A stretch of DNA of 44,199 bases from an uncultured Oscillospiraceae bacterium (GTDB taxonomy: Bacteria > Bacillota > Clostridia > Oscillospirales > Oscillospiraceae): NCBI GenBank assembly GCA_947627715.1, contig CANQXK010000022.1, positions 1 through 44,199 of the forward strand, written 5' to 3'. Positions 4,130-26,044 of this stretch are shown piece after piece; position 1 is the stretch's first letter; each line of letters begins with the position of its first letter. A program made the position numbers and the translations under genes. The notes beneath the pieces were generated by a model. It worked only from the letters and a program-made list of their open reading frames with translations. It ran no database searches and was not told the origin of the DNA.

Positions 4130-5254
4130 TCACCCGGCGCATCGGTAGACGCGGCGCATCAGCTCCGGGTGGAGCTGGGCGTAGTTAGGCAGGTAGTTGA
4201 GCACGTGCTGGGTGTAGATGACGCTGAGGCGGCGGCTTGGCTCCATGACGGCCAGCGCGCCGGCCGCGCCGTCCCAGCCGAACTCCCCGGCGGGGAACTC
4301 GTCGCCGCCCAGGTGGATGCGCATTCCCAGGGCGTACCCCTCGCTCTCCGAGGGCTTCATGGTGTCGTGGTAGTCCCGCAGGGTCTGCCCGGTGAGCTGG
4401 TTCTCCGTCATCTGCCTGACGGTGGCGGGCTTTAAAATTTCCGCGCCGTTGGCCCCCGTGCCGCCGCAGGCCAGGGCGTCCAGAAAGACGGCGTAGTCCT
4501 CCGCCCGGCAGCAGATCCCCGCGCCGCCGGAGTCGTAGGCGGGGGTGAGCTGGTGGGTGTTGTCCCGCTCCACCTCAAACATATAAAGCTCCCGGTCGTG
4601 CCAGCAGAGCTGCGCGGGCATACGCTCCATCTGTTCCCGGCCCGGCCGGAAGGCGACGCCCGTGACCCCCAGCGGAGCGAAGATGTGCTCCCGCAAATAG
4701 TCGGAAAACCGCTGGCCGGAGACCTCCTCGATCACTGCGGCCATCACGTCGTGGCACATACTGTAGCGGAAATGGGTACCGGGGTCGAACTCCAGGGGTT
4801 CCGCGGCCAGCATTCGGATCAGCTCCCGTGTCCCGGCGTTCTTCTCCTTCGCCCTTTGGATGGAGGGGAGGGTCTGGTCGTAGCTGAACCCGCCGGTCAT
4901 GGTCATCAGGTGCCGGAGGGTCATCACCGTTTTGGCCGGCCTCACCCCGTCCCCGTCCCGGACGGTGACGGCGGCGTACTCCGGCAGATACCGGCTCACA
5001 GGGTCGTCCAGGCCCACAAGTCCCCGCTCCCACAGCTGCATGGCGGCGGTCATGGTGGCGATCTTCGTGCAGGAGTAGATCCAGTACCACTCCCCGCCCC
5101 GGACGGGTTCCCCGCCCTTCCAGCCCATGTGGCCGGCGGCGTGGCGGTAGATGGGCCTGTGGTCCCGGCAGACGATGCACTCACAGGCGGGCACGCCGTA
5201 GAGGCGCTCCACGCTGTCAAGAAATTCGGTCACGGCCTCGAAGCTCATACCCAT
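4130..5254 (-). CDS. Serine hydrolase of the beta-lactamase / class C family
   Basis: 374 residues. The catalytic tetrad S-x-x-K is visible as SCTK at residues 61-64. The second motif is YSM at 164-166, where many family members have Y-A/S-N. A third-motif-like GWDGAAG lies near the C-terminus. No signal peptide is seen, so it should be cytoplasmic, which argues against a beta-lactamase or penicillin-binding protein and for an esterase or amidase. It is the last gene of the sugar operon and overlaps the GH42 gene by 10 bases. The internal ATG at 5248 forms an ATGA overlap with the GH42 stop and is an equally possible start. Removal of acetyl groups from imported oligosaccharides would fit the context, but that is inference. 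Confidence 0.8.
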   Translation of the reverse strand: MGMSFEAVTEFLDSVERLYGVPACECIVCRDHRPIYRHAAGHMGWKGGEPVRGGEWYWIYSCTKIATMTAAMQLWERGLVGLDDPVSRYLPEYAAVTVRDGDGVRPAKTVMTLRHLMTMTGGFSYDQTLPSIQRAKEKNAGTRELIRMLAAEPLEFDPGTHFRYSMCHDVMAAVIEEVSGQRFSDYLREHIFAPLGVTGVAFRPGREQMERMPAQLCWHDRELYMFEVERDNTHQLTPAYDSGGAGICCRAEDYAVFLDALACGGTGANGAEILKPATVRQMTENQLTGQTLRDYHDTMKPSESEGYALGMRIHLGGDEFPAGEFGWDGAAGALAVMEPSRRLSVIYTQHVLNYLPNYAQLHPELMRRVYRCAG

Positions 5255-7209
5255 TTCCCCTCCCCTGTCCGAATGGCCATCTCAAAGGGCCGGAGGGACA
5301 CCGTCTCCCCCTCCAGGGGGAAGTGGCACCCCACGGGCTGGTTATTGAAGAAGAAGCGGTAGACGCCGCCCGCGCCCGACCGGGTGGTGACCTCCACGCA
5401 CCGGGGGAGGGTGGTCAGCATGGGGACGGCCTGTTCCCGGAGGATCTCGGTCATCAGCGCGCGGTACAGGGCCTTCTCCCCCACCGTGCCCACGTAATAT
5501 GCCCTGCCGCTGCCGAAGGCGTTCTTTGTCACGGCGGCGGTCCCGGCGTAGAAACGCCCCTCATACCGCGCCCAGACCTCCGCCGTCTCAGGCTTTATAA
5601 GGTCGCACCAGCCCGTGACGGCGTAGCTCTCGCCCTTGGAGGCGGAGATGCGCTGCCGGGCCTTGCCGATGGGGTCGTACTCCTCCACAAAGCAGCCGCA
5701 CAGGGTGCGGAAGGGGCCGGGGAGGGGCTGCCCGAAGAGGCAGTTGCCGGTCTTGTCCTTGACGCCGGAGCGGTTGGTCAGCACCACCGTACCGCCCTGG
5801 GCGGCGAAGTCCTCCAGCTTTTGGGCCATCGACGGCTCCACGATGTGGTGGGTGGGGACGATGACCACCTTGTAGCCCTCAAGGCTCTCCGTCTCGTGGA
5901 TCACGTCCGTGTTGACGCCAAGGCCGGCGCACGCCTCCTGGAAGAGCCGGAGCTGCGTCCAATAGGCGAAGTCCACCGCCTGGCGCTGGTTTTTCAGGGC
6001 AAATTCCTGGTCCGCGGAGTAGAGGATGGCCACGTCGCTTTGGACGGTGGTTTTGTCAAGGCCGGGCAGGCGCTCAAGCCTCTTGAAAAGCGCCCGGAAC
6101 TCGGCGCAGCGGCGGTTTTCCCGGTTGTCGTGGTCCAAGAGGCCGTGGCCCATCATCTCCGCGCCGGACAGGGCGGAGCGCCAGCGGTAGACGCACATCA
6201 GGTCCGCGCCGTGGGCCACTGTCTGGAGGGCGTAGCCCGTCAGCTGTCCCGGCTCCGTGGTGGGGCCGAAGGGGACCCAGCACCCGCCGGGGCCGGCCAG
6301 CTCCTCTAAGATCCAGAAGTTTTTCCGTTTGAAGCCCCGCACAAAATCCAGGGCGAAGCCGTTGGAATAGAGCGCCTCCGGGTCCTCCGGGGGGCGGATG
6401 GGCGGGTAGTTGTCGTAGGCGGCCACGTCCAGGCCCTGGAACTCCCGGTGGAAGTCCGGCATATGGGCGGGGAAGCAGGCGTTGGTGGTGACGATGGCCG
6501 CAGGGTCGGCCTTTCGGATGATGTCCCGCTGGAAGTTCACGTAGTCCGTGGTGCGGGAGGCCCCGAAACGCTCAAAATCCAGCATGAAGGCCGGGTTGTG
6601 CCAGTCGGTCATGCAGTCCGGGGAGAGGAGGGGGTCGATCTCCGACCAGTCGCTGTACTCCCCGCTCCACACCGCGTTGCCCCAGGCGCTGTTCAGCGCC
6701 TCCACGGTCCCGTATTTCTTCTTCAGCCAGTCACGGAACGCCGCGCGGCAGGCGGGGCAGGTGCAGTGGCTGTTTTCAAGCTCGTTGTCTATCTGCCAGG
6801 CGAAGATCTCCGGCCTTCCGGCGTAGCGGCCGGCCATCTCCCTCACGATCCGCCCGGCGTATTCCCGAAAGACGGGGCTGACGATGCACCTGTGACCGCG
6901 GATGCCGGGGTCCGTGGGCTTGCCGTCCCGGCCCCACTGGAGGGTCTCCGGGCGGCTCTTGTAGAGCCACAGCGGGGCGCAGTTGGTGGGCGTGCCCAGG
7001 ATGATCTTCATGCCGTGGCGGGAGAAGATCTCAATGGCCTCGTCCAGCCACGCAAAATCAAAGCGGCCCTCCCTCGGCTCCAGACGGCTCCAGGAAAACT
7101 CCGCAAAGCGCACCACTTGGACGCCCAGCGTCTCCATGCGTTGGGCGTCCTCCTCCCAAATCTCCCGCGGCCAGTGCTCAGGGTAATAGGCCATTCCTAT
7201 GGTGATCAT
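5245..7209 (-). CDS. GH42 beta-galactosidase
   Basis: 654 residues, a typical GH42 length. The TIM-barrel start (GMAYYPEHWPREIWEED) is characteristic. The acid/base glutamate is E143 in IDNE143L and the likely nucleophile is E302 in WILE302E. The four cysteines that bind zinc in several GH42 enzymes are present (C108, C149, C151, C154). The trimerisation and C-terminal beta domains follow. No signal peptide, so it acts inside the cell on imported oligosaccharides. GH42 enzymes release terminal beta-galactose, and some release alpha-L-arabinopyranose. In this operon the expected substrate is the galactose side chain of xyloglucan fragments. The start has GGGGAGG seven bases upstream. It sits 14 bases after the GH31 gene. 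Confidence 0.92.
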   Translation of the reverse strand: MITIGMAYYPEHWPREIWEEDAQRMETLGVQVVRFAEFSWSRLEPREGRFDFAWLDEAIEIFSRHGMKIILGTPTNCAPLWLYKSRPETLQWGRDGKPTDPGIRGHRCIVSPVFREYAGRIVREMAGRYAGRPEIFAWQIDNELENSHCTCPACRAAFRDWLKKKYGTVEALNSAWGNAVWSGEYSDWSEIDPLLSPDCMTDWHNPAFMLDFERFGASRTTDYVNFQRDIIRKADPAAIVTTNACFPAHMPDFHREFQGLDVAAYDNYPPIRPPEDPEALYSNGFALDFVRGFKRKNFWILEELAGPGGCWVPFGPTTEPGQLTGYALQTVAHGADLMCVYRWRSALSGAEMMGHGLLDHDNRENRRCAEFRALFKRLERLPGLDKTTVQSDVAILYSADQEFALKNQRQAVDFAYWTQLRLFQEACAGLGVNTDVIHETESLEGYKVVIVPTHHIVEPSMAQKLEDFAAQGGTVVLTNRSGVKDKTGNCLFGQPLPGPFRTLCGCFVEEYDPIGKARQRISASKGESYAVTGWCDLIKPETAEVWARYEGRFYAGTAAVTKNAFGSGRAYYVGTVGEKALYRALMTEILREQAVPMLTTLPRCVEVTTRSGAGGVYRFFFNNQPVGCHFPLEGETVSLRPFEMAIRTGEGKWV

Positions 7210-7223
7210 AAGCGATCCTCCCC

Positions 7224-9473
7224 TTATTTGCCGGTGACTATCCGGCAGTCCGTGCCCACCTGCTCCACGGTGAAGGCGCAGGGCCTGTCGCAGGTCACGG
7301 TGACGGTATCGCCGTCTCTGGCGGCGGTGAAGGTGAGCGCCGGGGCGCCGGCGGTATCCACCACCGTGCGCGTGAGGACGGCGCCGTCGGACAGGTTGTA
7401 AAGCCGCAGCGTCAGGCCGCTGGTATAGTCGTAATCGGGACGGGAATCCACGCTCCCCACGGGGAGGATGGTGTTCTCACGCACAAAGAGGGGCAGGGAG
7501 AAGAAGTCGTACCGCTCCCGCCTCCAGCCGGTCCCCTCCACGGTCTCGCCAGTGAGCAGGTGTGTCCACCTGCCGCGGGGCAGGTAGTAGTCCACCGTGC
7601 CGTCTTCCCGCATCACCGGGGCCACCAAAAGGGCGTCCCCCAGCATATACTGGCGATCCAGGTCCTCGCAGCCGGGGTCGTCCTCAAATTCCAGCATCAT
7701 GGCCCGCAGCATGGGCACGCCCGTCCCGTGGGTGAAGGCCGCCTGGGCGTAAAGATAGGGCATGAGGGTATTTTTCAGCTTGGAGAAGGCCCGGCACACG
7801 TCCACGGCCTCCTCGCCGAAGAGCCAGGGCACCCGGTAGGAGGTGGACCCGTGGAGCCGGGAGTGGGTGCTGAGAAGGCCGAAGGCCAGCCAACGCTTGT
7901 AGAGGTCCGCCGGGGCCGTGCCCTCAAAGCCGCCGATGTCGTGGCTCCAGAAGCCGAAGCCCGACAGGCACAGGCTCAGCCCGCCCCGCAGGGACTCGGC
8001 CATGGAGACATAGGTGGAGTTGCAGTCCCCGCCCCAGTGGACGGGGAATTTCTGTCCGCCCACGGTGGCCGAGCGGGCGAACAGGACGGCCTCGCCGCGG
8101 CCCTTGACCTCCTCCACCACCTCAAAGACGGCCTTGTTGTAGAGGTAGGTGTAATAATTGTGCATCCGCTCCGGGTCACTGCCGTCAAAATACGCAACGT
8201 CGGTGGGGATGCGCTCGCCGAAGTCGGTCTTGAAGCAGTCCACCCCCTGGGCCATGAGCGCGCGGAGCTTATCCTGATACCACTTCACCGCCTCCGGGTT
8301 TGTGAAGTCCACCACGGCAAGGCCGGCCTGCCACAGGTCCCACTGCCAGATGTCGCCGTTGGGCCGGCGCAGCAGGTAGCCCTTCTCCGCCGCCTCGTCG
8401 AACGCGGCGCTCTTCTGCCCCAGGTAGGGGTTGATCCAGACGCAGACCTTCAGACCCTTCTGGTGCATACGCCTCAGCATCCCCTCCACGTCGGGGAACA
8501 TACTCTTGTCCCACTCAAAGCCGCACCACTCGTTCTCCCGCATCCAGAAGCAGTCGAAGTGAAAGACCCGGAGGGGGATGTCGCGCTCCGCCATACCGTC
8601 CACGAAGGACATGACGGTCTTTTCATCGTAGGAGGTGGTGAAGGAGGAGGTGAGCCACAGGCCGAAGGTCCACGCCGGGGGCAGGGCCGGGCGGCCGGAG
8701 AGGGAGGCGTACCGCTCCAAAACGCCCTTGCGGTCCGGCGCGCCTATGAGGATGAAGTCCAGGCGCTGGCCGGGGACGGAGAACTGCACCTTGGTCACCG
8801 CCTCGGAGCAGACCTCGAAGGAGACGGAGCCGGGGTCATTCACCAGCACCCCGTAGTGCCGGGAGCTGATGTAGAAGGGGATGTTCTTGTAGCTGATCTC
8901 GCTGGAGGTGCCGCCGTCCTCGTTCCATATGTCCACCACCTGCCCGTTGCGGACAAAGGGGGTGAACCGCTCGCCCAGGCCGTAGATCTTCTCCCCCACG
9001 TCCACCTGGAGCTGACAGCGCATGAAGGGTCCCTCCGGGGTGTCCATGAAGCTGAGCATGGACGAGCCGTAGCGGCTGCCGATGTTGGTAAGGGTCTCTC
9101 CGTTGTAGGTCCATGTGAAGAGGCAGGGGTCCTTCTTCTGAACGACCAGCCTGAGCGCGCCGGAGGCGATCTCCACCCGGTCCCCCTCCTCCCGGACCTC
9201 CATGGGGAGGCTTTGGTCGTCCAGCTCAAAGCGCGGCATTTTGCGCCTGTCGCCCTTGAAATGGACGGAGCGGAGCCGGAGCATATCCTTCTGCGGCGCG
9301 GTGACGGTCAGCTCCTGGACGGGGCCGTCCATGCTGCGCTCGTCCTTGCGGTAGGGCACGGCGAAGAGGTACACCTCCCGCCCGTCGGGGGAGACGCGGA
9401 CCTCGCGGATCTGCTCGCAGTTATAGCTTTTGACGCCGGGGCGCATACGCCACTCGCCAAGGTTGAATTTCAT
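7224..9473 (-). CDS. yicI: GH31 alpha-xylosidase (YicI type)
   Basis: 749 residues. The nucleophile region FKTDFGERIPTD (D417) and the acid/base region HWGGDCNSTY (D483) match the signatures of E. coli YicI, whose catalytic residues are D416 and D482. YicI-type enzymes release alpha-1,6-linked xylose from isoprimeverose and xyloglucan oligosaccharides, rather than glucose. The N-terminal galactose-mutarotase-like beta domain, the barrel and the C-terminal beta domains are all present. No signal peptide is seen. ATG 9473 is chosen because GGAGGG lies eight bases upstream; an in-frame TTG at 9527 has no such site. This gene is the strongest single pointer to xyloglucan as the operon's substrate. 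Confidence 0.93.
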   Translation of the reverse strand: MKFNLGEWRMRPGVKSYNCEQIREVRVSPDGREVYLFAVPYRKDERSMDGPVQELTVTAPQKDMLRLRSVHFKGDRRKMPRFELDDQSLPMEVREEGDRVEIASGALRLVVQKKDPCLFTWTYNGETLTNIGSRYGSSMLSFMDTPEGPFMRCQLQVDVGEKIYGLGERFTPFVRNGQVVDIWNEDGGTSSEISYKNIPFYISSRHYGVLVNDPGSVSFEVCSEAVTKVQFSVPGQRLDFILIGAPDRKGVLERYASLSGRPALPPAWTFGLWLTSSFTTSYDEKTVMSFVDGMAERDIPLRVFHFDCFWMRENEWCGFEWDKSMFPDVEGMLRRMHQKGLKVCVWINPYLGQKSAAFDEAAEKGYLLRRPNGDIWQWDLWQAGLAVVDFTNPEAVKWYQDKLRALMAQGVDCFKTDFGERIPTDVAYFDGSDPERMHNYYTYLYNKAVFEVVEEVKGRGEAVLFARSATVGGQKFPVHWGGDCNSTYVSMAESLRGGLSLCLSGFGFWSHDIGGFEGTAPADLYKRWLAFGLLSTHSRLHGSTSYRVPWLFGEEAVDVCRAFSKLKNTLMPYLYAQAAFTHGTGVPMLRAMMLEFEDDPGCEDLDRQYMLGDALLVAPVMREDGTVDYYLPRGRWTHLLTGETVEGTGWRRERYDFFSLPLFVRENTILPVGSVDSRPDYDYTSGLTLRLYNLSDGAVLTRTVVDTAGAPALTFTAARDGDTVTVTCDRPCAFTVEQVGTDCRIVTGK

Positions 9474-9533
9474 ATATGGTTCCCTCCGTATATCGTGATC
9501 GGCGTTAGCCGGAAATGTCCAGGTCAAAAACCG

Positions 9534-10202
9534 TCAATAGTTGACGGACGGGCCTTCCTTCTGGTTGATGGTAAAGCCGTCGGAGGCGGCGCCGTTGGCC
9601 TCTATTTTTCGGAAGATGGGCATGATGACCTGACTTGTGGTGTAGATCATCAAAATAGGCAGGACGAACAGTCCCACGTAGAAGAGAAAATCGTTGATCC
9701 CCATGAAAAGGAGCACCTGGATGACAAGGATGCCCAGAAGCCCCAGGGAGCGAAGGAAGAAGCGGATAAAAATTTTCCGGGAGTTGGCGAGATTTTTGAA
9801 CATGGTGTTCTCGTAACGCGCCTCCAGGGGGAAGACGTAGATGTAGTGGACAAAGACCACGAAGAGGACGATGAGGCCGATGATGAGGAAGGGCAGGGCG
9901 TTCTCCTCAAGGTTGTTGAAGAGCTGAAAATCCAGCCACACGCCGTAGAGAAGCACGCCGGCGATGAGCGTCAGGGGGATGCCGTGCTTCATGTTGTGGA
10001 CGTAGGCGCTCCAGAAGGCGCGAAAAACGCCGGCGCTCTCGCGCTTTTCCGCCATCTTCAGGGTCACCGTGAAGGCGGCGATGGTGGAGGCGCCGATGGT
10101 CACCAGCGGAATACAGCCGATGGCCCACATGATGTTGAGGAGCAGAAGGTCCACGACCCGTGAGCCGTAGTAGAGGAAAGCCGATTCGGCGTTGAATTTC
10201 AT
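9534..10202 (-). CDS. YesL-like (DUF624) membrane protein
   Basis: 222 residues with about five hydrophobic segments. The opening, MKFNAESAFLYYGSRVVDLLLLNIMW and onward, and the TIGASTIAAFTVTLKM motif are typical of the YesL/DUF624 family. These proteins are regularly encoded beside LplABC-type sugar importers in Firmicutes, yet their exact role is not established; an accessory part in transport or sensing is usually supposed. ATG 10202 has AAAGGAG upstream, while the in-frame start at 10265 lacks a site. It lies between the binding protein gene and the GH31 gene, after a strong hairpin at 10271-10299. Confidence 0.85.
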   Translation of the reverse strand: MKFNAESAFLYYGSRVVDLLLLNIMWAIGCIPLVTIGASTIAAFTVTLKMAEKRESAGVFRAFWSAYVHNMKHGIPLTLIAGVLLYGVWLDFQLFNNLEENALPFLIIGLIVLFVVFVHYIYVFPLEARYENTMFKNLANSRKIFIRFFLRSLGLLGILVIQVLLFMGINDFLFYVGLFVLPILMIYTTSQVIMPIFRKIEANGAASDGFTINQKEGPSVNY

Positions 10203-10270
10203 GGCGGAGCTCCTTTCGCGGAAAGTAAGCGGAGAGGCGGCCGGAACGGTTTTCCGGCGGGGCAAAGGCG

Positions 10271-10340: not shown

Positions 10341-12173
10341 TTACTTGGAGAAGCCGGCGTCTACCTGCATCTGATAGAGACGGGCGGCCTCGTTCTTGGC
10401 CCACTCGATGCACTGGTCGTAGCCGTACTCGTCGCACCTGGTCTTCATCTCCGCCACGATGGCGTCAAACTCGGCGTCGGTCTTGGCGTACATGGCCTGA
10501 TAGGTGTACTGCTTGACAGCGGTGCCCACCTGGCTGCGGGTCATGGACAGCTCCTGGGACATATCGCTGGCGGTGTAGTTGACGGTGGGGGCCAGGATGT
10601 AGTTCTGGTCGTCCAGGTACTCGTTGATGTTGTTGTAGCCCATGTGGTCACGCCAATCCTGCTCCATCTCGCAGCGGGCGTCGGTGGCGTAGCTGGCCCA
10701 GGAGGTCTTGTTGAAGGTCTCGCCCTCGATGGACTCCGGGTTCTCAGCGTACAGGGACCAGGGGTTGAAGTTGAACTGGAAGTGGCCGTCGTTGAAGGTG
10801 CCGTCCAGGGTGTAGGTCCTGCCGGTCCAGGGGGAGGTCCACTCGGTGCCGCTCAGGTCATAGGAGGGGTCGTTGGCGACCTTCAGGCCCAGGTCGGTGA
10901 AGTAGGTGGAGCCGTCCTCGGCATAGTCCCACATCAGGCCCTGGAGGCCGTAGAGGGAGGTCATCATTCCTTCGGGGGTGTAGAGCCAGTCAAGGAAGTG
11001 CATGATGTCCTCGGGGTACTCGGTGCGGCTGCCGATGCAGACCACATAGGAGCTGCCGGAGAGGGACAGGCCGTTGACGAAGTTGGTGGCGGCCTTGGGC
11101 TGGATGGTGGTCATGAACTCACCGGCGGCCATATGGTCGGGGGTGTTGAACTGGTCGGAGCCGGCGTAGTTAAAGATGGAGAACAGGGTGCCGCCGGCCT
11201 GGACCTTAGCGGCGTACTTCTCCCAGGTGTTGGTGGCGGAGTCGGGGTCCAGAAGGCCGCGCTGATAGAGCTTGTTGGCGAACTTCAGGGCCTGGAGGTA
11301 GGGGCTGTCGTCGTCGAGGCAGCCGTAGAAGTTGCCGGTCTCAGGATCATAGAAGCCCATAGCTCCCTTGTCCCCGTCGAAGCCGGTCATGCCGGTGGCA
11401 AGGCACTTGATGTACATACTCATGTCGCCGTCCCAGTCCGGCCACAAGCTCAGGCCGTAGGTGGGGTTGCCGTTGTCGTCGGTGGGGTCAAGCTCGTGCA
11501 TATCCGCAAGGACGTCCACCAGGTCGTCCAGGGTGTTGATCTCAGGATAGCCCAGCTGCTTGTAGAGGTCCCAACGGATCTCCCAGGTGTAGGAGAAGTC
11601 GGCGTGGTCGGAGTCGTCCAGCGCCAGCTCGTTGTGGATGCCGTAGAGCTTGCCGTCCTCGGTGAGCTCCTTCATGGCATCGATGGCCACGGGGAAGGTG
11701 GACTTGATGTTGGGGGCGTAGTCATCCAGAATGCCCTCGTCCTCCCAGTCGAAGAGGAGGCCCTGCGCGGCGGCATTGCGGAAGTTCTCGCCGGCGTCGC
11801 CCAAAACCACGATGTCGCCCAGGTCGCCGTTCTCCATACGGGTCTCCAGAGCGCCCTCGGTGTTGGGGATGAAGTTCAGCTCAATGCCGAACTTGTCCTT
11901 CAGGACGATGGCGCCCCAGCCGCCCTGCTTGCCGGAGTAGTTGGCTACCTGGCTGAAGACGTTGAGGGTGATGGGATTGTCGGGGTCGCCGGCCAGATAG
12001 AGATCGGTGTCGCTGGTGGACGGGGTATCGCTGCCGCTATCCGTCTTCCCTCCGGCGCTGGTCTGGCCGCTGGTCTGGCTCTGTCCGCCCGTGGTGTCGC
12101 CGCAGCCCGCCAGAACGCCGACGAGCATCATGAGCGCCAGGAGCACAGCCGTGAGTTTCCTGTACTTTTTCAT
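10341..12173 (-). CDS. Extracellular solute-binding lipoprotein of a CUT1/LplA-type sugar ABC importer
   Basis: 610 residues, long even for this type. Residues 1-23 form a lipoprotein signal peptide and the lipobox is LAGC with the acylated C24. A Ser/Thr/Gly linker follows (25-55). Next comes the two-lobed type 1 solute-binding domain, as in LplA-like proteins for oligosaccharides. It captures sugar outside the cell and hands it to the two permeases encoded just upstream in the same operon. By context the ligand is probably a xyloglucan or cello-oligosaccharide; the sequence does not prove this. The ATG has AAGGATG ahead. Hairpins flank the gene on both sides. Confidence 0.9.
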   Translation of the reverse strand: MKKYRKLTAVLLALMMLVGVLAGCGDTTGGQSQTSGQTSAGGKTDSGSDTPSTSDTDLYLAGDPDNPITLNVFSQVANYSGKQGGWGAIVLKDKFGIELNFIPNTEGALETRMENGDLGDIVVLGDAGENFRNAAAQGLLFDWEDEGILDDYAPNIKSTFPVAIDAMKELTEDGKLYGIHNELALDDSDHADFSYTWEIRWDLYKQLGYPEINTLDDLVDVLADMHELDPTDDNGNPTYGLSLWPDWDGDMSMYIKCLATGMTGFDGDKGAMGFYDPETGNFYGCLDDDSPYLQALKFANKLYQRGLLDPDSATNTWEKYAAKVQAGGTLFSIFNYAGSDQFNTPDHMAAGEFMTTIQPKAATNFVNGLSLSGSSYVVCIGSRTEYPEDIMHFLDWLYTPEGMMTSLYGLQGLMWDYAEDGSTYFTDLGLKVANDPSYDLSGTEWTSPWTGRTYTLDGTFNDGHFQFNFNPWSLYAENPESIEGETFNKTSWASYATDARCEMEQDWRDHMGYNNINEYLDDQNYILAPTVNYTASDMSQELSMTRSQVGTAVKQYTYQAMYAKTDAEFDAIVAEMKTRCDEYGYDQCIEWAKNEAARLYQMQVDAGFSK

Positions 12174-14744: not shown

Positions 14745-14758
14745 TGAAAACGTTTTCT
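14745..14758 (-). promoter_or_regulatory. LacI-family operator or cre site ahead of the transporter genes
   Basis: Contains a perfect 12-bp palindrome GAAAACGTTTTC at 14746-14757 with the central CpG expected for LacI-family repressors. It also comes close to the CcpA cre consensus, so local LacI or global CcpA control are both possible. It sits 28 bases upstream of the permease start, in the leader, where a bound repressor would block RNA polymerase. Confidence 0.65.
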
Positions 14759-17720: not shown

Positions 17721-17743
17721 ACGGATGTCCTCCAAAGGAATGA

Positions 17744-18760
17744 TCATTTTTGTTCAGCGCCCGTCAGGCGTTTCACCGTGCCTCCCGGCTGAACGGAGCC
17801 TGAGATGGTGATGACTCCGGGCACGTAGCATTTGGGGTCCTCAATGGCGCTGATGAGCTGTTCGGTAGCCGTCGCGCCGATGCCCCAGCCATTCTGCCTG
17901 TAGGTGGCAAGGCTGGGCCGCAGGACGCCGGCCATGCGGATCCCGTCGAAGCCGAAGCAGCTGACGTCGCCGGGGATGGAAAGGCCCTGGGCCTCCAGCT
18001 CCGCCTGCCCGCCAAGGTAGGCGATGTCGTCCGGGTACATGATGCAGGTGGGCCTGACCCGGCACTGAAGGAGCTTTCTCGTGGCGAGGGCCGAATCGGC
18101 AGGCTCCTGATAGCGGGCGGGGACCACATACTCAGACGGCACCGCGATCCCCAGATCGCGGCAGGCCCGGTAAAAGCCCGCCAGCCGCTGGCTGGTCACG
18201 TCGCCGTTCTCGCCGTGGATAAAGGCGATGCGGGTGTGCCCCATGCCGTAGAGGTAACGGACGATCTCCTCAACGCTGGCCACATTCTCCCCCGTGACGG
18301 TGGTGCGGCCCGGAAACACGTCGTCAATGGCCACCACCGGCAGCTCGCTCTCCGCGAGGCGGCGGACGGCCGCCCTGGCGTCCTCCCCGTAGCCGGGCTG
18401 GACAATGAGGATGCCGTCGCACTGACGGCGCTTGGCGTGCTCGTAATACCCCTGCTCGCGGCTGGGGTTGTTGAGGAAGGTGATGTCGTAGCCCCGCTTT
18501 TCGGCGGTGTCCCTCACTGCCTCCAGAATGACGGAGAAATATTCGTGGGCCAGCACGTTCTTGAAGAGGATGCCGATGTTCATGCTCCTGTTGGTCTTCA
18601 GCGTCCGCGCCGCGGCGTTGGGGAAGTAGCCCAGCTCCTGGGCGGTTTGGCGCACCATCTCCGCCTTCTCAGGGCTGACGCCGGGCCGGCCGTTCAGAGC
18701 CTTGGAAACGGCGGCCACAGAGAGGCCGCACTTCTCCGAAATTGTCCTGATGGTCACCAT
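17744..18760 (-). CDS. LacI-family transcriptional regulator of the sugar regulon
   Basis: 338 residues. The N-terminal helix-turn-helix (TIRTISEKCGLSVAAVSKALN, about 3-23) and the hinge helix with ARTLK, whose leucine inserts into a central CpG in this family, are clear. The rest is a periplasmic-binding-like sugar sensor domain. It is encoded first in the minus-strand operon, divergent from the GH95 operon, and its own promoter carries an AAACCGTTT palindrome near the start point. It probably represses both operons until a sugar from the imported oligosaccharide binds; which sugar is unknown. The ribosome binding site is weak (GGGGAAGG some ten bases upstream), in keeping with low expression. 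Confidence 0.92.
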   Translation of the reverse strand: MVTIRTISEKCGLSVAAVSKALNGRPGVSPEKAEMVRQTAQELGYFPNAAARTLKTNRSMNIGILFKNVLAHEYFSVILEAVRDTAEKRGYDITFLNNPSREQGYYEHAKRRQCDGILIVQPGYGEDARAAVRRLAESELPVVAIDDVFPGRTTVTGENVASVEEIVRYLYGMGHTRIAFIHGENGDVTSQRLAGFYRACRDLGIAVPSEYVVPARYQEPADSALATRKLLQCRVRPTCIMYPDDIAYLGGQAELEAQGLSIPGDVSCFGFDGIRMAGVLRPSLATYRQNGWGIGATATEQLISAIEDPKCYVPGVITISGSVQPGGTVKRLTGAEQK

Positions 18761-18796
18761 ACTTTATGCAACCTTCCCCGCTGTAAGACTTAGGTT

Positions 18797-18805
18797 AAAC
18801 GGTTT
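18797..18805 (-). promoter_or_regulatory. Operator-like palindrome at the lacI promoter
   Basis: AAACCGTTT on the minus strand (AAACGGTTT on the plus), within GAAACCGTTTAA, resembles the sites at 14745 and 18982. It begins a few bases past the expected transcription start of the regulator gene, suited to autorepression. Confidence 0.55.
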
Positions 18806-18965: not shown

Positions 18966-18981
18966 GGAAGTTGTGGAAATA

Positions 18982-18989
18982 AAACGTTT
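18982..18989 (+). promoter_or_regulatory. Operator-like palindrome at the GH95 operon promoter
   Basis: AAACGTTT, within TAAAACGTTTAA, lies about ten bases past the predicted start point. It shares its core with the sites at 14746, 17073 and 18797. The 275-base gap 18761-19035 thus holds two divergent promoters, each with one palindrome, and otherwise AT-rich DNA. Confidence 0.6.
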
Positions 18990-19035
18990 AAGCGGCGAGG
19001 GGCGCGGACTTCCGCCGCTTCAAAAGGAGCCGGCA

Positions 19036-21258
19036 ATGAAAAACGCATCTGAGTCCCCCCATCTTCTTTGGTATCGCGCCCCCGCCCCGGACTGGAACAG
19101 CGCCCTGCCTCTGGGCAGCGGGACGCTGGGCATGATGGTGTTCGGCGGGACGGCACGGGAGGAGCTTCAGCTCAACGAGGAGAGCCTTTGGAGCGGCTTT
19201 CCCGGCGACTGGGACGCGCCGGAGTGCCGGGAGGCCCTGCCTGAGATGCGGCGGCTCCTTTTTGACCGGGAGCTGAGGCGCGCGGAGGCGCTGTGCAAGG
19301 AGCGCCTGGTCTGCCGCGGCCGGGGCAGCGACGACCCCTATTACGGCAGCTTTCAGACGGCGGGTTCCCTCATTCTGGAGGCCCCGGCGGAGGACGTCTC
19401 CGGCTATGTGCGCCTTCTCGATCTGAGGGCGGCCCGCGCCGAGACGCGCTTCGGCCCGATTTGCCGCGTCCACACCGTCTCCCACCGCTATCAGGTCACC
19501 GCCAGCCGCGTCACCGGGCAGAGCTGTCTGCGCCTCACCTTTGAGCGGGAGGACTGCTCCGTGGCGTATCGGGGCGCGGAGATCGTCGTCACCGGGCGAA
19601 ATCCCGGCCCCGGCGCCGTGGGCTTTTGCACCGTGGTGCGCGTGGAGACGGACGGCGCTGTCTCCCCTTCCGGCGACTCCCTTGCGGTCAGCGGGGCGCG
19701 GACGGTCACCATATATACCTGCACCGCCACCACTTACCGGGCGGACGAGGACCCGGAGCGCGTCTGCCGCCGGCGCATCGATAAGGCGGCCGGGGCCGGC
19801 TTTGACGCGGTTTTGGAGGACGAGGCCGCCTTTGCCGGGGAGGCCATGGGCCGCTGCACCCTGACGCTGGAGGACGACCCGCTCCTTGCGTCCCTCACCA
19901 CGGACCGGCGCCTTGCGCGGGTACAGGAGGGCGGGACGGACATAGGGCTTGTGCGCCTTTGGTTCGAGTTTGGAAAATACCTCTTCCTCTGCTCCGCGCC
20001 TGGGCGGCTGCCTGCCAACCTCCAGGGGGTTTGGTCCAAGGATATGTGGACGCCCTGGACGGGGGACTACCACCTGAACATCAACCTTCAGATGAACTAC
20101 TGGCCCATGGAGGCGCTGGGGTTTGCCGGCCTGGGGGAGAATCTGTGGGCGTATCTGCGCTTTCTCCGGGAGCACGGGACCCGCACCGCCCGCGTCATGT
20201 ACGGCTGCCGGGGCTGGGTGGCCCACACCCTCAGCAACCCCTGGGGCTTCACCGCGCCGGGGCAGGACCCGGACTGGGGGGCGTTTCTGTGCGGCGGGGC
20301 CTGGTGCTGCCGCCACATCTGGGAGCACTGGCTCTACACCGGGGACCTGGCCTTTCTGCGGGAAAACTGGCCCGTCCTCCGGGACGCCGCCCTGTTTTTC
20401 ACAGACTTCCTGGCGGAGGACCCGAAAACCGGGTATCTGGTCACCGCGCCCTCCAATTCCCCGGAGAACAGCTACATAGACCCGGAGGACGGCGGGAAGA
20501 TCGCCGTGACGCCGGGGCCGGCCATGGACTCCCAGATCGTCCGGGAGCTTTTTTCCCACACGCTGGAGGCCGCAAAGGTCCTGGGCGCGGAGGACGGTCT
20601 GACGGACAAAATAGCGAGGCTTCTCCCCCGCCTGCCGCCTGTGAAGATCAGCCGGTACGGCACCGTCCAGGAGTGGCTGGAGGACTACGAGGAGTGGGAG
20701 CCGGGCCACCGGCATATAAGCCAGCTCTACGGCCTCTATCCCGGCTCGGAGATCGACCCGGACGCCACGCCGGAGCTTGCGCGGGCGGCGGAAGAGACCC
20801 TCCGGCGGCGCCTCTCCCACGGGGGCGGCCACACGGGGTGGAGCCGCGCCTGGATCGTCAGCTTCTACGCCCGCCTTCGGGACGGGGCGGAGGCGGAGCG
20901 CCACCTCTACGCGCTTTTGCGAAAAAGCACTCTCCCCAACCTCTTCGACACCCACCCGCCCTTCCAGATCGACGGCAACTTCGGCGGCACGGCGGGGATC
21001 CTGGAGTGCCTCGTTCAGAGCCACGCCGGCGCTCTCCGCCTTCTCCCCGCCCTGCCGCCGGATTGGCAAAGCGGCAGACTCGACGGCGTGCGCGTCCGAG
21101 GGGGGCTTACAGTCTCGTTCGGGTGGAAAAAAGGCAAAGTCACGGAACTTTCTATAGTTTCTCCTGATGACAGGGACGCGGTTTTGGTGTATAATGGCGG
21201 TAAACGCACCGTACACCTGCGCGCCGGGGAAAACTCGGTGGAGGGCAGCCATGTATAA
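19036..21258 (+). CDS. GH95 alpha-L-fucosidase
   Basis: 740 residues. Visible GH95 signatures are LWYRAPAPDWNSALPLGSG at the start, LNEESLWSG, the active-site region HLNINLQMNYWP, the SPEN segment and DGNFGGTAGI near the C-terminus. The (alpha/alpha)6 barrel follows an N-terminal beta domain, and no signal peptide is seen. GH95 enzymes remove alpha-1,2-linked L-fucose; a few act on L-galactose. Both sugars cap the galactose side chains of xyloglucans. ATG 19036 is fixed by AAAAGGAG six bases upstream; a longer open frame from 18871 would run through the promoter and operator. The stop overlaps the start of a decayed esterase gene. Confidence 0.92.
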   Translation: MKNASESPHLLWYRAPAPDWNSALPLGSGTLGMMVFGGTAREELQLNEESLWSGFPGDWDAPECREALPEMRRLLFDRELRRAEALCKERLVCRGRGSDDPYYGSFQTAGSLILEAPAEDVSGYVRLLDLRAARAETRFGPICRVHTVSHRYQVTASRVTGQSCLRLTFEREDCSVAYRGAEIVVTGRNPGPGAVGFCTVVRVETDGAVSPSGDSLAVSGARTVTIYTCTATTYRADEDPERVCRRRIDKAAGAGFDAVLEDEAAFAGEAMGRCTLTLEDDPLLASLTTDRRLARVQEGGTDIGLVRLWFEFGKYLFLCSAPGRLPANLQGVWSKDMWTPWTGDYHLNINLQMNYWPMEALGFAGLGENLWAYLRFLREHGTRTARVMYGCRGWVAHTLSNPWGFTAPGQDPDWGAFLCGGAWCCRHIWEHWLYTGDLAFLRENWPVLRDAALFFTDFLAEDPKTGYLVTAPSNSPENSYIDPEDGGKIAVTPGPAMDSQIVRELFSHTLEAAKVLGAEDGLTDKIARLLPRLPPVKISRYGTVQEWLEDYEEWEPGHRHISQLYGLYPGSEIDPDATPELARAAEETLRRRLSHGGGHTGWSRAWIVSFYARLRDGAEAERHLYALLRKSTLPNLFDTHPPFQIDGNFGGTAGILECLVQSHAGALRLLPALPPDWQSGRLDGVRVRGGLTVSFGWKKGKVTELSIVSPDDRDAVLVYNGGKRTVHLRAGENSVEGSHV

Positions 21259-21461
21259 AACGTTACCCATTGATCCTGGCCGTCCCCGGTTCGGCGCGGC
21301 GCGGGCAGGAGCTGTACAACGATATCCCCAACTACGCCGCTCTTGCCCGCAGGGGGTTTGTTGTGGCGGTAATCGCCGCGCTGCTATCGGCCCACGGCGG
21401 CCCCGCGTTTTTCAGCGGACCGATCCTCGATATCCTTTCAGACTTCTGCCAAAGAGCGTAA
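21251..21461 (+). pseudogene. Decayed alpha/beta-hydrolase (esterase) gene remnant
   Basis: An ATG at 21251 overlaps the GH95 stop, as in coupled operons. Reading MYK from it and then removing one A of the run 21257-21260 gives MYKRYPLILAVPG and later NDIPNYAALARRGFVVAVI. That resembles the first strands of alpha/beta-hydrolase esterases, which typically read YPLIL-x-x-PG and later LARRGYVVA-x-x-YR. After this point the frame goes into unrelated sequence and stops at 21461, so most of the gene, including the catalytic serine, is gone. Both the frameshift and the truncation are inferred from one sequence. It suggests the operon once carried a deacetylating esterase. The gap 21259-21482 holds nothing else apart from the next ribosome binding site. 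Confidence 0.5.
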
Positions 21462-21482: not shown

Positions 21483-23900
21483 ATGAAATTCGGCCATTTT
21501 GACGACGAAAAGCGGGAGTATGTCATTGATACCCCCGAAACCCCTCTGCCCTGGATCAATTACCTGGGCAGCGAGGAGTTTTTCGGCCTCATCTCCAACA
21601 CCATGGGGGGCTACTGCTTCTACCGGGACGCGAAGTTACAGCGGCTTGTGCGTTACCGCTACAACGACGTGCCGGGGGACACCGGCGGGCGGTTCTACTA
21701 CATCAAGGAGGCGGGCAAGCCCGCGTGGAACCCCGGCTTTCTCCCCACGCGCACGGCTCTGGACAGCTATCGGTGCCGGGTGGGCATGGGCTACAGCGTC
21801 TTTGAGGCCGCGAAGGACGGGCTGGAGGCCGCCGTCACCGCCTTCGTGCCCCTGGGGGAAAACTGCGAGCTGCACGACGTGACGCTCACCAACAGGACGG
21901 ACAGGCCCAAATCCGTCAAGCTCTACGGGTGCGTGGAGTTTTGCCTGTGGAACGCGGTGGACGACGCCCAGAACTACCAGCGGAATCTGAACATCGCCGA
22001 GTGCGAGGCGGAACCAGGCGTCATCTACCACAAGACCGAGTACCGGGAGCGGCGGGACCACTACGCCTTCTACGGCGTCAATGTGCCTGCCTCGGGCTGG
22101 GACACGGACCGAAACGCCTTCCTGGGCCACATGGGCAGCTGGGCGGACCCGCAGCTTGTCCGGGAGGAGCGCAGCGCCCAATCCCTCCGGGTGGGCTGGT
22201 ACCCCATCGGCTGCCACCGCGTCGATGTGGACCTCAAGCCCGGAGAGAGCTTCCGGGCGGTGTTCGTCCTGGGGTACGGGAAGAACCCCAGGGATCAGAA
22301 ATTCCTGTCCCCCGGCGTTATCCGCAAGGACACGGCCAGGCGGGTGATGGAGAAATTCTCCACCGGCGAGGCCGTGGACGCCGCCTTCAGGGAGCTTTCG
22401 GACTACTGGACGCGGCTTCTCACCAAGTTCACCCTGCGCTCCCCGGATGAGCGGCTGGACCGCATGGTGAACATCTGGCACCAATATCAGTGCATGGTGA
22501 CCTTCAACATGAGCCGCTCCGCCTCCTATTACGAGACGGGCACGGGCCGGGGCATGGGCTTTCGGGACTCCTGCCAGGATCTTTTGGGCTTTGTCCACAT
22601 CGTCCCGGACCGGGCACGGGAGCGGATCCTCGACCTGGCCTCCGTTCAGCTTGAGAACGGCGGGGCCTTCCACCAGTATCAGCCCCTCACCAAGCGGGGC
22701 AACAACGACGCGGGGTCCGGCTTCAACGACGATCCCCTGTGGCTGGTGGGCGCGGTGTGCGCCTATGTGAAGGAGACGGGGGACTTCACCATCCTGGACC
22801 ACCCCACCCCCTTCAACAGCACCCCCGGCACGGAGGCGCCGCTGATGGAGCATCTGCGCCGCTCCGTCCAGTATTCGCTCCGCAGCCTGGGTCCCCACGG
22901 CCTGCCCCTCATCGGCCGCGCGGACTGGAACGACTGCCTCAACCTCAACTGCTTCTCCGACGAACCCGGCGAGAGCTTTCAGACCACCGGCCCCTCGGAG
23001 GGTCCCGTGGCGGAGTCCGTGTTCATCGCCGCCATGTTCGTCAAATACGGCGGCGAGTACGCCGCCCTCTGCCGCCGGGTGGGCCTGGAGGCCGAGGCGC
23101 AGGAGACGGAGAAGGCGGTGAAGGCCATGGAGGCCGCCGTCCTCACCGACGGCTGGGACGGGGATTGGTTCCTGAGAGCCTACGACTCCTTCGGCGGCAA
23201 GGTGGGCAGCCATGAGTGCGAGGAGGGCCAGATCTACATTGAACCCCAGGGCTTCTGCGCTCTGGCCGGCATCGGGAAGGAGAGCGGCCAAGCGGAAAAG
23301 GCCCTCAACTCCGTCCGGGAGCGGCTTTTGGGGAAGTACGGCGTGGAGCTTCTGGCCCCCTGCTACACAAGGTATCACCTGGAGCTGGGGGAGATCTCCT
23401 CCTATCCCCCTGGATTTAAGGAAAACGGCTCGGTCTTCTGCCACAACAACCCCTGGGTGGTCATCGGCGAGACCGTTCTGGGCCGGGGCGAGGAGGCGTT
23501 TGACGTCTACAGGCGCATCTGCCCGGCCTATCTGGAGGAGGAGAGCGAGGTCCACGAGACCGAACCCTACGTCTACTCCCAGACCGTCACGGGCAGGGCC
23601 TCCGGCGCGCCCGGCCACGCCCGGAACAGCTGGCTCACCGGCACCGCCTCCTGGACGTTCCTGAGCATCAGCCAGGCGATCCTGGGCATCCGCCCGGACT
23701 ACGACGGTCTGCGCGTCCAGCCGTGTCTGCCGGAGGCGCTGAACGACCTCACCGTGACGCGGGCCTTCCGGGGGGCGACGTACGTTATCCATATCCGGCG
23801 CACGGGAGAACGCTCCGTGCGCGTCGGTGGCAAAAAAATCAGCGGCGACACCCTCCCCCTCGCCGGGGCCGGGCGCGTTGCCGTGGAAGTAACTCTATAG
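21483..23900 (+). CDS. cbpA: Cellobiose phosphorylase (GH94)
   Basis: 805 residues, close to the 811 or so of the Clostridium thermocellum enzyme, and recognisably similar along its full length. Examples are MKFGHFDD at the start, PWINYLGSEEFF, FCLWNAVDDAQNYQRN, RGMGFRDSCQDLLGF and GLPLIGRADWNDCLNLN. The catalytic aspartate lies in the ADWND motif (480-484). It splits cellobiose with inorganic phosphate into glucose-1-phosphate and glucose in the cytoplasm, saving one ATP compared with hydrolysis. It complements the cellodextrin phosphorylase encoded at 14823-17720, which handles longer chains. AGAGGTG lies ahead of the ATG. It is in one operon with GH95 and xylB. Confidence 0.96.
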   Translation: MKFGHFDDEKREYVIDTPETPLPWINYLGSEEFFGLISNTMGGYCFYRDAKLQRLVRYRYNDVPGDTGGRFYYIKEAGKPAWNPGFLPTRTALDSYRCRVGMGYSVFEAAKDGLEAAVTAFVPLGENCELHDVTLTNRTDRPKSVKLYGCVEFCLWNAVDDAQNYQRNLNIAECEAEPGVIYHKTEYRERRDHYAFYGVNVPASGWDTDRNAFLGHMGSWADPQLVREERSAQSLRVGWYPIGCHRVDVDLKPGESFRAVFVLGYGKNPRDQKFLSPGVIRKDTARRVMEKFSTGEAVDAAFRELSDYWTRLLTKFTLRSPDERLDRMVNIWHQYQCMVTFNMSRSASYYETGTGRGMGFRDSCQDLLGFVHIVPDRARERILDLASVQLENGGAFHQYQPLTKRGNNDAGSGFNDDPLWLVGAVCAYVKETGDFTILDHPTPFNSTPGTEAPLMEHLRRSVQYSLRSLGPHGLPLIGRADWNDCLNLNCFSDEPGESFQTTGPSEGPVAESVFIAAMFVKYGGEYAALCRRVGLEAEAQETEKAVKAMEAAVLTDGWDGDWFLRAYDSFGGKVGSHECEEGQIYIEPQGFCALAGIGKESGQAEKALNSVRERLLGKYGVELLAPCYTRYHLELGEISSYPPGFKENGSVFCHNNPWVVIGETVLGRGEEAFDVYRRICPAYLEEESEVHETEPYVYSQTVTGRASGAPGHARNSWLTGTASWTFLSISQAILGIRPDYDGLRVQPCLPEALNDLTVTRAFRGATYVIHIRRTGERSVRVGGKKISGDTLPLAGAGRVAVEVTL

Positions 23901-23913
23901 AGGAGGAATCGGC

Positions 23914-25392
23914 ATGAACTACTACATAGGCATTGACCTTGGCACATCGGCTGTGAAGCTCCTGCTGGTGGACGAGGCCGGGAAGGTGGTGGGCGAGGTC
24001 ACGAAGGAGTACCCGCTGAGCTTCCCCCACCCCGGCTGGAGCGAGCAGGAACCCGCGGACTGGTGGAACGCCGTGCTGGCGGGCGTCCCGGAGCTGGTCT
24101 CCGGCGTGGACGCCCGGAACGTCCGGGCCATCGGCCTGGGCGGCCAGATGCACGGCCTTGTGGCCCTGGACGGGCAGGACAACGTCCTGCGCCCCGCCAT
24201 CCTGTGGAACGACGGGCGCACCGCCAGGGAGGTGGACTACCTCAACGAGACCGTCGGCCGCGAGAAGCTCAGCGCGTACACCGCCAACATCGCCTTCGCC
24301 GGCTTCACCGCGCCCAAGCTTCTGTGGATGCGGGAAAACGAGCCGGACAAATTCGCGAAGATTGCAAAGATCATGCTCCCCAAGGACTACCTGGTCTACA
24401 AGATGACCGGCGTTCACGCCACCGACTACTCCGACGCCTCAGGTATGCTGCTTTTGGACGTGCAGCACAAGTGCTGGTCCGGGGAGATGATGGACATCTG
24501 CGGCGTCACGGGATCCCAGCTGCCCACGCTCCACGAGAGCTGGGAGTGCGTGGGGACCTTAAAGCGGGAGGTCGCCGCGGCCTTCGGCCTATCGGACAGC
24601 GTCAAGGTCTGCGCCGGGGCCGGGGACAACGCCGCCGCTGCCGTGGGAACCGGCACCGTGGGCGTGGGCGGGTGCAACATCAGCCTGGGCACCTCCGGGA
24701 CCGTGTTCATCTCCTCGGACAAGTTCGGCGTGGACCCCCACAACGCCCTGCACTCCTTCGCCCACGCCGACGGCGGCTACCACCTCATGGGCTGTATGCT
24801 CTCCGCCGCCTCCTGCAACAAGTGGTGGATGGACGAGGTCTCCGGCGACACAGACTACTCCGCCGAACAGGCGAAGATCGCGCCGGAGAAGCTGGGCCGC
24901 AACCACGTCTATTTCCTCCCCTATCTCATGGGGGAGCGCAGCCCCATCAACGACGTAAACGCCCGCGGCACCTTCACGGGCCTCACCATGGACACCACCC
25001 ACGCGGACATGACCCAGGCAGTGCTGGAGGGCGTCGCCTTCGCCATCCGGGACAGCTTTGAGGTGGCGAAGGCCCTGGGCGTCTCCATCCCCCGCTCCAA
25101 CGTCTGCGGCGGCGGTGCCAAATCCCCCCTGTGGCGGACGATCCTGGCCAACGTGCTGGGCATCCCCCTGGACATGGTGGCCACGGAGCAGGGACCCGGC
25201 TACGGCGGCGCGGTCCTGGCCATGGTGGCCGACGGGCGCTACCCCACCGTTCAGGCCGCCTGCGACGCCCTGGTCACCGTGGCCGGCACCACCGAGCCGG
25301 ACCCGGCGCTCACCGCCCTCTACGACCAGCGTTACCAGCAGTTTAAGAACATCTACCCCGCCATGAAAGCCCTTTTCCCCAAACTTCTGTAA
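23914..25392 (+). CDS. xylB: Xylulokinase
   Basis: 492 residues, the usual length. FGGY-kinase motifs are clear: IGIDLGTSAVKLLLVD at the N-terminus, GLGGQMHGLVALD (the MHG xylulose-binding signature), ISLGTSGTVF and the C-terminal CGGGAKSPLWRTILANVL. It phosphorylates D-xylulose to xylulose-5-phosphate for the pentose phosphate pathway. The xylose would come from the GH31 alpha-xylosidase. AGGAGG lies just ahead of the ATG, and the gene follows the phosphorylase by 13 bases. No xylose isomerase gene of the XylA type is found in the window. Confidence 0.95.
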   Translation: MNYYIGIDLGTSAVKLLLVDEAGKVVGEVTKEYPLSFPHPGWSEQEPADWWNAVLAGVPELVSGVDARNVRAIGLGGQMHGLVALDGQDNVLRPAILWNDGRTAREVDYLNETVGREKLSAYTANIAFAGFTAPKLLWMRENEPDKFAKIAKIMLPKDYLVYKMTGVHATDYSDASGMLLLDVQHKCWSGEMMDICGVTGSQLPTLHESWECVGTLKREVAAAFGLSDSVKVCAGAGDNAAAAVGTGTVGVGGCNISLGTSGTVFISSDKFGVDPHNALHSFAHADGGYHLMGCMLSAASCNKWWMDEVSGDTDYSAEQAKIAPEKLGRNHVYFLPYLMGERSPINDVNARGTFTGLTMDTTHADMTQAVLEGVAFAIRDSFEVAKALGVSIPRSNVCGGGAKSPLWRTILANVLGIPLDMVATEQGPGYGGAVLAMVADGRYPTVQAACDALVTVAGTTEPDPALTALYDQRYQQFKNIYPAMKALFPKLL

Positions 25393-25408
25393 AAAGGAGG
25401 ACATCATT

Positions 25409-26044
25409 ATGAAAATCTATTCCGTCTATGACCCCGAATTCAAGCCCTACGGCAAGGTCCTGGAGGGCTACGACACCGCCGGCCTGATCCGCGCCGCCAG
25501 CGCCATCCCGCTCCCCGCCTCCGGCACGGCCTATGAACCCAGCATCCCGGCCCTGGAGGCCACGGACGTCTACGGTCTTCTCCAGAACAACGCCTACGGC
25601 GGGATGCCCGTGGAGATCGGTATGTGCTGGGGCCGGAACACCAGGCTCAACTGCCTTGAGTATCACCGCGACAGCGAGGTGAACATCGGGGAGGGCGACT
25701 TCATCCTCCTTTTGGCAAAGCAGTCCGAAATCGAGGGCGGCGTTCTGGACACCTCCAAAGTCAAGGCGTTCCGCGCCCCCGCCGGGGTGCCCGTGGAGGT
25801 CTACGCCACCACGCTCCACTACGCCCCCTGCAACGCCGGGAAGGACGGCTCCTTCCGCGTCGTGGTGGTGCTTCCGCGCGGCACGAATTTCCCCGCCCCG
25901 GCCATCGCCCCTCTGAACGAGGAGGACACGTGGATGACGGCCCGCAACAAGTGGCTCCTGGCCCACCCGGACTCCGACGAGGCCAGATCCGGCGCGCACA
26001 TCGGTCTCTCCGGCGAGAACATCGACATCGCCGCCCTTCTTTGA
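25409..26044 (+). CDS. DUF4867 family protein, cupin-like; possible sugar isomerase
   Basis: 211 residues, cytoplasmic. I recognise the family as DUF4867, of unknown function, often found beside xylulokinase in Clostridia. The middle reads like a small beta-barrel: CWGRNTRLNCLEYHRDSE then NIGEGDFILLLA. E84, H86, E90 and the later H137 (in LHYAP) are placed like the metal ligands of cupin-type aldose isomerases. The gene follows xylB by 16 bases with AAGGAGG and ends at a strong terminator. Because the regulon lacks a normal xylose isomerase, conversion of xylose (or lyxose) to xylulose is an attractive but unproven role. Another cupin function, such as mutarotation or sugar sensing, is possible. 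Confidence 0.75.
   Translation: MKIYSVYDPEFKPYGKVLEGYDTAGLIRAASAIPLPASGTAYEPSIPALEATDVYGLLQNNAYGGMPVEIGMCWGRNTRLNCLEYHRDSEVNIGEGDFILLLAKQSEIEGGVLDTSKVKAFRAPAGVPVEVYATTLHYAPCNAGKDGSFRVVVVLPRGTNFPAPAIAPLNEEDTWMTARNKWLLAHPDSDEARSGAHIGLSGENIDIAALL

Follow-up and report, generated by a model that had tools for sequence, protein, structure and literature searches.

The closest described counterpart of the locus treated here is the xyloglucan gene cluster Ccel_2451-2458 of Ruminiclostridium cellulolyticum (PMC4780118, PMC8576529). This bacterium needs its ATP-binding cassette (ABC) importer on xyloglucan, and the solute-binding protein of the importer has a high affinity for XXXG (PMC4780118); the glycoside hydrolase family 3 (GH3) enzyme Glu3A removes backbone glucose, and a cellobiose phosphorylase (CBP) finishes the remaining cellobiose. 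We analyzed a stretch of 44,199 nucleotides (the window), which is contig 22 (CANQXK010000022.1) of an uncultured Oscillospiraceae bacterium (GCA_947627715.1; 2.64 Mb in 100 contigs, 99.6% complete). In this window, a gene for a LacI-family regulator stands between two divergent operons whose importer falls into one clade with that of R. cellulolyticum, and which likewise encode cytoplasmic GH31 and GH42 enzymes, with a CBP again predicted to deal with the cellobiose. The window locus differs in that the CBP gene lies within it, that a GH95 gene is added, and that it has a cellodextrin phosphorylase (CDP) in the place of Glu3A and no GH3 gene. As judged from the sequence, this replacement of GH3 by a CDP in an otherwise known type of xyloglucan locus is what is new here, and the gene set appears to import plant xyloglucan fragments into a gut bacterium and to cut their backbone by phosphorylases where a relative uses a hydrolase. 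A preliminary description of this DNA had placed importer, GH31, GH42, GH95, CDP, CBP and xylulokinase genes around the LacI gene; all of them are borne out, with strong profile or PDB scores for GH31, both GH94 enzymes, GH95 and xylulokinase.

The GH31 enzyme resembles YicI of Escherichia coli, as it lies above the NCBIfam cut-off and has YicI entries as its best PDB matches, but differs in being part of a complete locus for oligosaccharides that includes phosphorylases for the backbone. In the xyloglucan loci of Xanthomonas and Bacteroides, GH95 (PDB 7kmq, 4ufc) and GH31 act jointly on fucosylated xyloglucan. These are Gram-negative systems that work with hydrolases, and we know of no backbone phosphorylase in them.

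Proposed pathway

We consider it probable that the locus is a LacI-controlled regulon for the import of xyloglucan oligosaccharides and their cytoplasmic breakdown by GH31 and CDP in alternation, with CBP acting last. The importer would bring in four-glucose units, for example XXXG or XLFG, from which GH95 would take off fucose and GH42 galactose. GH31 would then remove the xylose from the non-reducing-end glucose and CDP would release this glucose as glucose-1-phosphate, the two alternating from XXXG to GXXG, to XXG plus glucose-1-phosphate, to GXG, to XG plus glucose-1-phosphate and to cellobiose, which CBP would split. The net yield per XXXG would be three xylose, three glucose-1-phosphate and one glucose. 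The preliminary description envisaged the two GH94 enzymes acting on cellotetraose released by GH31 and GH42; this mechanism was changed to the alternating one, since the alpha-xylosidase of the published pathway works from the non-reducing end (PMC4780118) and a backbone glucose must therefore leave between rounds. In R. cellulolyticum, CDPs take backbones of at least three glucoses and CBP takes those of two (PMC6720390), in agreement with GXXG, GXG and GG as steps. Both the order of the steps and the acceptance by CDP of backbones with xylose on the acceptor-side (+1, +2) glucoses are inferred here, and we give even chances to the more specific proposal that the CDP is a xyloglucan-oligosaccharide phosphorylase, which would release glucose-1-phosphate from GXXG and GXG so that all of the backbone but the last glucose ends up in this form. 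The literature searched contained neither phosphorolysis of xylosylated oligosaccharides by a CDP nor a "xyloglucan phosphorylase", which is weak evidence of absence as most subscription journals lay outside the search.

By using phosphate instead of water, anaerobes save one ATP-equivalent per glucosidic bond. The published pathway turns XXXG into two glucoses and one cellobiose and thus gains one glucose-1-phosphate, while three of the four glucoses would leave as glucose-1-phosphate in the pathway proposed here, if it is true. A CDP that accepts xylosylated acceptors would represent a new substrate class for GH94 and possibly a tool with which defined xyloglucan oligosaccharides could be synthesized through the reverse reaction, and the presence of CDP beside GH31 and GH42 could serve as a sequence signature for finding further such loci. 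The earlier contention that known clostridial pathways use hydrolases for the backbone has to be narrowed, as R. cellulolyticum leaves cellobiose and uses cellobiose phosphorylase (PMC8576529).

Pairing of the cellodextrin phosphorylase with side-chain enzymes

The CDP gene (14823..17747, minus strand) encodes a GH94 protein that matches cellodextrin phosphorylases of the PDB at 1.4e-249 over residues 16-946. On the same strand follow the YicI-type alpha-xylosidase of GH31 (7224..9527; 1176.5 bits to NF007940 at a cut-off of 606, TDFGE motif at residue 434) and the GH42 beta-galactosidase (5245..7209; PF02449 at 1.9e-120, PF08532, PDB matches to GH42). The plus-strand operon begins with GH95, a predicted alpha-L-fucosidase (19036..21258, with its ATG at 19036; PF22124 at 1.7e-153, PF14498, PF21307), the best PDB matches of which are the GH95 entries 7kmq and 4ufc; the family includes fucose-specific and L-galactose-specific members. 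It is followed by CBP (21483..23900; PF17167 at 1.2e-152, PDB CBPs at E = 0 over residues 1-804, DWND at 481). A 760-residue open reading frame on the minus strand (18988-21270), which was the first candidate for GH95, was rejected as a spurious shadow of the plus-strand gene, since Pfam gave nothing for it up to E = 10 and the PDB nothing up to E = 1.

How unusual the pairing is can be seen from a survey of 391 genomes of the class. A YicI-type GH31 at E <= 1e-150 occurs in 43 of them, 42 besides that of the window, and neighborhoods were taken for 40 of the 42, several being cut by contig ends and three (L199, L218, L247) covering just 3-4 kb. GH31 was seen in all of these 40 loci, GH3 in 13, CBP in one and CDP in none, and among the ten that also carry GH42 or GH95, seven contain GH3 and none CDP. 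The earlier view that a phosphorylase takes the place of the usual hydrolase is supported by these counts. Viewed from the other side, CDP at E <= 1e-100 occurs in 23 other genomes of the 391, and GH31, GH42 or GH95 was seen beside it in none of these 23 loci, some of which are contig-cut. Five genomes (G176, G203, G348, G354, G417) possess both CDP and GH31, on different contigs; G348, in which GH31, GH42 and GH95 stand together (L225) and CDP lies on another contig, might carry out this chemistry with two separate loci.

The unit is conserved in relatives. The nearest GH95 proteins come from three "Lapin" metagenome-assembled genomes of uncultured Oscillospiraceae (80, 77 and 65% identity); 16 of the 28 stretches matched in that search encode a relative, and the remaining 13 of these 16 lie at 28-45%. 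A full-length CDP relative (80-83%) is present in three of the 118 other related genomes, G005, G012 and G017. The order in G005 is CBP-GH95-GH43, then divergently LacI-CDP-permeases-binding protein-DUF624-GH31-GH42, with the serine hydrolase gene that adjoins GH42 in the window moved further along (L082). G017 has the same order, apart from GH95, from CBP through GH42, where the contig end cuts it, and in G012 the two halves of the locus are split over two contigs, with the serine hydrolase adjoining as in the window (L085). A fourth locus, L067, runs from GH31, cut by the contig end, through LacI and also has GH95. Counting the window, importer, GH31, CDP and LacI are kept in all five loci, GH42 in four (the fifth is contig-cut), and CBP and GH95 in four each; three relatives carry an extra GH43 gene between LacI and GH95 or CBP. 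The arrangement is thus largely kept in three relatives and partly in a fourth, and is not due to chance. Between GH95 and CBP of the window lies the remnant of an alpha/beta-hydrolase gene (21252..21461, plus strand; from gap translations, with the esterase call made by eye). The open frame of the corresponding gene in L065 is long (~3966-4775), and the remnants in the window and in L066 (~12200-12440) differ.

The five xyloglucan-linked CDPs are 68-86% alike, and the window CDP is 41-46% identical to the 23 others. It is full-length kin of the CDPs of PDB entries 5nz7 and 8h6h (PMC5667895), with conserved platform Trp (W617), catalytic Asp (D619) and -1, +1 and +2 residues, as mapped onto R. 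thermocellum numbering by hand from the alignment; it differs from them in its linkage to alpha-xylosidase and beta-galactosidase and in belonging to its own sequence group. In the solved CDP, the acceptor cleft past +1 is a wide canyon (PMC5667895), and by nuclear magnetic resonance the hydroxymethyl group of the non-reducing acceptor sugar makes the weakest contact (PMC9293210). As a separate observation on GH94, the same genome contains a 2536-residue frame with GH94 matches (G000:C11:8721-10076; L002, L004), and many relatives have frames of ~2200-2750 residues that match CDP weakly. From its size and domains, we presume that the 2536-residue frame resembles a cyclic beta-glucan synthase.

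The importer and the joint substrate

On the minus strand, downstream of CDP, the importer is encoded by a MalF-like permease of 482 residues (13269..14717), a MalG-like permease (12318..13256), both PF00528, and a solute-binding lipoprotein (10341..12173), for which the Pfam search returned no family and the PDB search family-1 binding proteins (best 2.6e-9). One locus, L244, has the order GH42, AraC-type response regulator, sensor kinase, GH3, GH31, with two permease genes and a binding protein gene arranged divergently, and is taken as the R. cellulolyticum locus because this equals the gene order given in PMC4780118. The window permeases are 51% and 51% identical to those of L244, and the binding protein 29% (252 bits). 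The next-closest importer, that of L224 (52%, 66%, 40%), stands with GH95, a GH2 beta-galactosidase, GH31 and a BNR-repeat protein (Pfam BNR/Sortilin), which we take to resemble GH74. Outside L224, L241, L243, L244, L245 and the copies in relatives, permeases reach at most 39% and binding proteins at most 102 bits, the latter for a 235-residue piece at a contig edge in the GH31-GH42-GH95 locus L225, followed by 75 bits. A tree of 28 MalG-like permeases unites the window group, L224 and four R. cellulolyticum-type rows in one clade with 98/98 support, under a program warning that long branches meet beside the clade of window and R. cellulolyticum type. This kinship to a published xyloglucan importer supports xyloglucan oligosaccharides as the joint substrate, as had been supposed from the enzymes. 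The MalF-like permease has ~160 extra N-terminal residues; that of L224 (11490-12935) is 481 residues long and that of the R. cellulolyticum type 321.

Regulation and alternative explanations

Several observations weigh against the proposed pathway. In a docking study, the +1 sugar has its O6 close to the catalytic Asp (PMC9293210), so that a substituent at this position could be hindered. All 23 other CDPs have the same catalytic Asp, +1 Tyr, +1 Glu and +2 Asp, and with all mapped columns canonical the sequence gives no sign of tolerance for xylosylated glucose; 29 columns separate the five linked CDPs from the 23 others, and none of the mapped sugar-contact columns differs cleanly. The window GH42 is just 30-32% identical to the GH42 of R. 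cellulolyticum-type loci, and the permease of a locus with GH95, GH3 and GH31 (L230) is 33% identical and falls outside the importer clade. Among the relatives, G017 lacks GH95, and CBP was not seen in the 6 kb beyond GH95 in L067. Finally, the bacterium's own genome yields ten GH3 matches, some being fragments of a single gene. Two of the proteins (on C60 and C5) share 56% and 54% identity with the GH3 of L256, a locus that also contains GH31, GH42 and a serine hydrolase.

These GH3 genes could mean that a beta-glucosidase encoded elsewhere removes the glucose between xyloses, and that CDP and CBP finish unsubstituted stretches (the GG of XXGG-type fragments) or co-imported cellodextrins; the canonical state of the mapped active-site columns of the CDP speaks for this. 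We regard this as unlikely, although the 54-56% likeness to the L256 enzyme keeps it a real rival. GH3 proteins from five further xyloglucan-type loci show 48-84% likeness, and none of seven own GH3 proteins compared (a set that lacks one or more other GH3 genes, including one on C1) comes near the Glu3A type over its full length, the highest value being 30%, with 41% over a stretch of 225 residues for one other. Moreover, no GH3 gene was seen within the conserved unit, and the C60 and C5 genes have importer genes of their own, with permeases outside the xyloglucan clade.

The own genome also qualifies the earlier statement that no secreted endo-xyloglucanase is present and that the bacterium hence feeds on fragments freed by others. 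This applies to the window, as the genome, in which the search for endoglucanase families covered GH5, holds three GH5 matches, one of them a predicted GH5 cellulase with CBM2 and a leader-like N-terminus. Another contig (G000:C32, L184) carries a cluster of GH106-like, GH5, GH2 and two GH3 genes, the latter with the C-terminal domain before the N-terminal domain.

R. cellulolyticum controls its locus by the two-component system XygS/XygR, whereas the window locus has a LacI-family regulator (17744..18760, minus strand; PF00356, PF13377, PF00532). Two exact copies of the LacI-type palindrome GAAAACGTTTTC lie in the window, one separating the CDP and permease genes (14746..14757) and one inside the CDP gene (17073..17084), and each of the four locus-bearing genomes has two at matched places (same places in L066, L083 and L085); at 17073, conservation may partly reflect the protein, since the site lies inside CDP. 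An operator-like site AAAACGTTTA upstream of GH95 (18981..18990) has counterparts in L066, L083 and L085, and another, TAAACGGTTT, lies upstream of LacI (18796..18805), so that both operons carry sites. The pattern scan found no site directly before xylulokinase, and L067 has a single one-mismatch GAAAACGTTTTC site, before LacI. Three copies of AAACGTTT compare with 0.26 expected in the window (one of 100 shuffles reached three), and seven matches of a looser palindrome pattern, at four distinct places, with 1.09 expected (none of 100 shuffles reached seven). These conserved operator-like sites at both operons favor a single regulon, as the preliminary description had proposed. The palindromes might instead be general catabolite (CcpA/cre-like) sites, with no dedicated LacI regulon, and we take GAAAACGTTTTC to resemble the cre consensus. 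However, 34 control loci totaling 543,634 bases (31 from the genus and three from other genera, many with carbohydrate genes) hold no exact copy of GAAAACGTTTTC and one copy with a single mismatch, which together with the two matched copies in each of four genomes makes this explanation rather improbable.

That the locus serves another substrate (cellodextrins or another alpha-xylosylated or alpha-glucosylated oligosaccharide), with GH31, GH42 and GH95 in side roles, is suggested by CBP standing near CDP in 14 of the 23 other CDP loci, a pair thus typical of loci without xyloglucan enzymes, and by YicI-type GH31 occurring without GH42 or GH95 in 30 of the 40 fetched loci, but the kinship of the importer and the joint conservation of the side-chain enzymes make it very improbable.

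Xylulokinase and DUF4867

Behind CBP, after 13 bases, follow xylulokinase (23914..25392, plus strand; TIGR01312 at 565 bits, cut-off 380) and a DUF4867 cupin (25409..26044, plus strand; PF16161 at 1.1e-78, PDB 9gyy). The short distance makes co-transcription with CBP likely in this genome. The pair nevertheless lies outside the conserved unit: of the four examined genomes that have CBP, the window genome alone shows it in this position, the three relatives lacking it there, and in G002 it stands beside a SpoVA gene without phosphorylases.

Among 31 fetched DUF4867 loci (L087-L099, L106-L123; some genomes contribute two or three), DUF4867 is near xylulokinase in 22 and beside a FucI-like isomerase of ~500 residues in ten. 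The metal ligands described in PMC11968277, Glu-x-His-x3-Glu and a His further on, seem to occur in the window protein (EYHRDSE, TLHYAP), and no proven function for the family was found in PMC11968277, PMC9594981 and PMC6158908. XylA was not found in the own assembly, nor an L-fucose isomerase domain by domain search, and XylA is above cut-off in just 18 of 119 relatives. The two absences from the own assembly had suggested DUF4867 as a lone xylose isomerase, an idea rejected as unsupported, since a protein search finds the last 23 residues of a ~500-residue FucI-like isomerase at the end of a 70,618-base contig (G000:C11:70545-70613) and an equal piece in C46, so that the genome most likely has the gene and the assembly lost it in gaps. 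Xylulokinase, DUF4867 and a FucI-like isomerase may together form an alternative xylose route. Short pieces of the FucI-like isomerase are placed at contig ends or close to them in more than one genome (G000:C11, C46; G005:C26, C40; G022:C20, C146). This points to a multicopy gene at which assemblies break, with the result that a domain search reports it as absent.

Further genes of the locus and its surroundings

Besides DUF4867 and the decayed esterase-like gene, a serine hydrolase of the beta-lactamase/esterase fold (4130..5254, minus strand; PF00144 at 1.6e-54) adds to the previously listed genes; it overlaps GH42 by ten bases and is a candidate deacetylase. A DUF624/MusI-like membrane protein (9534..10265, minus strand; PF04854, NF052431 under its cut-off) is encoded between GH31 and the binding protein. 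Adjoining the locus are two BspA-type leucine-rich repeat proteins in tandem (1915-4020) and, convergent with DUF4867, a GH43 gene with a C-terminal beta-xylosidase domain (26096-27571), which is of a different type from the GH43 in the loci of the relatives (PF04616 at 275 versus 68-69 bits).

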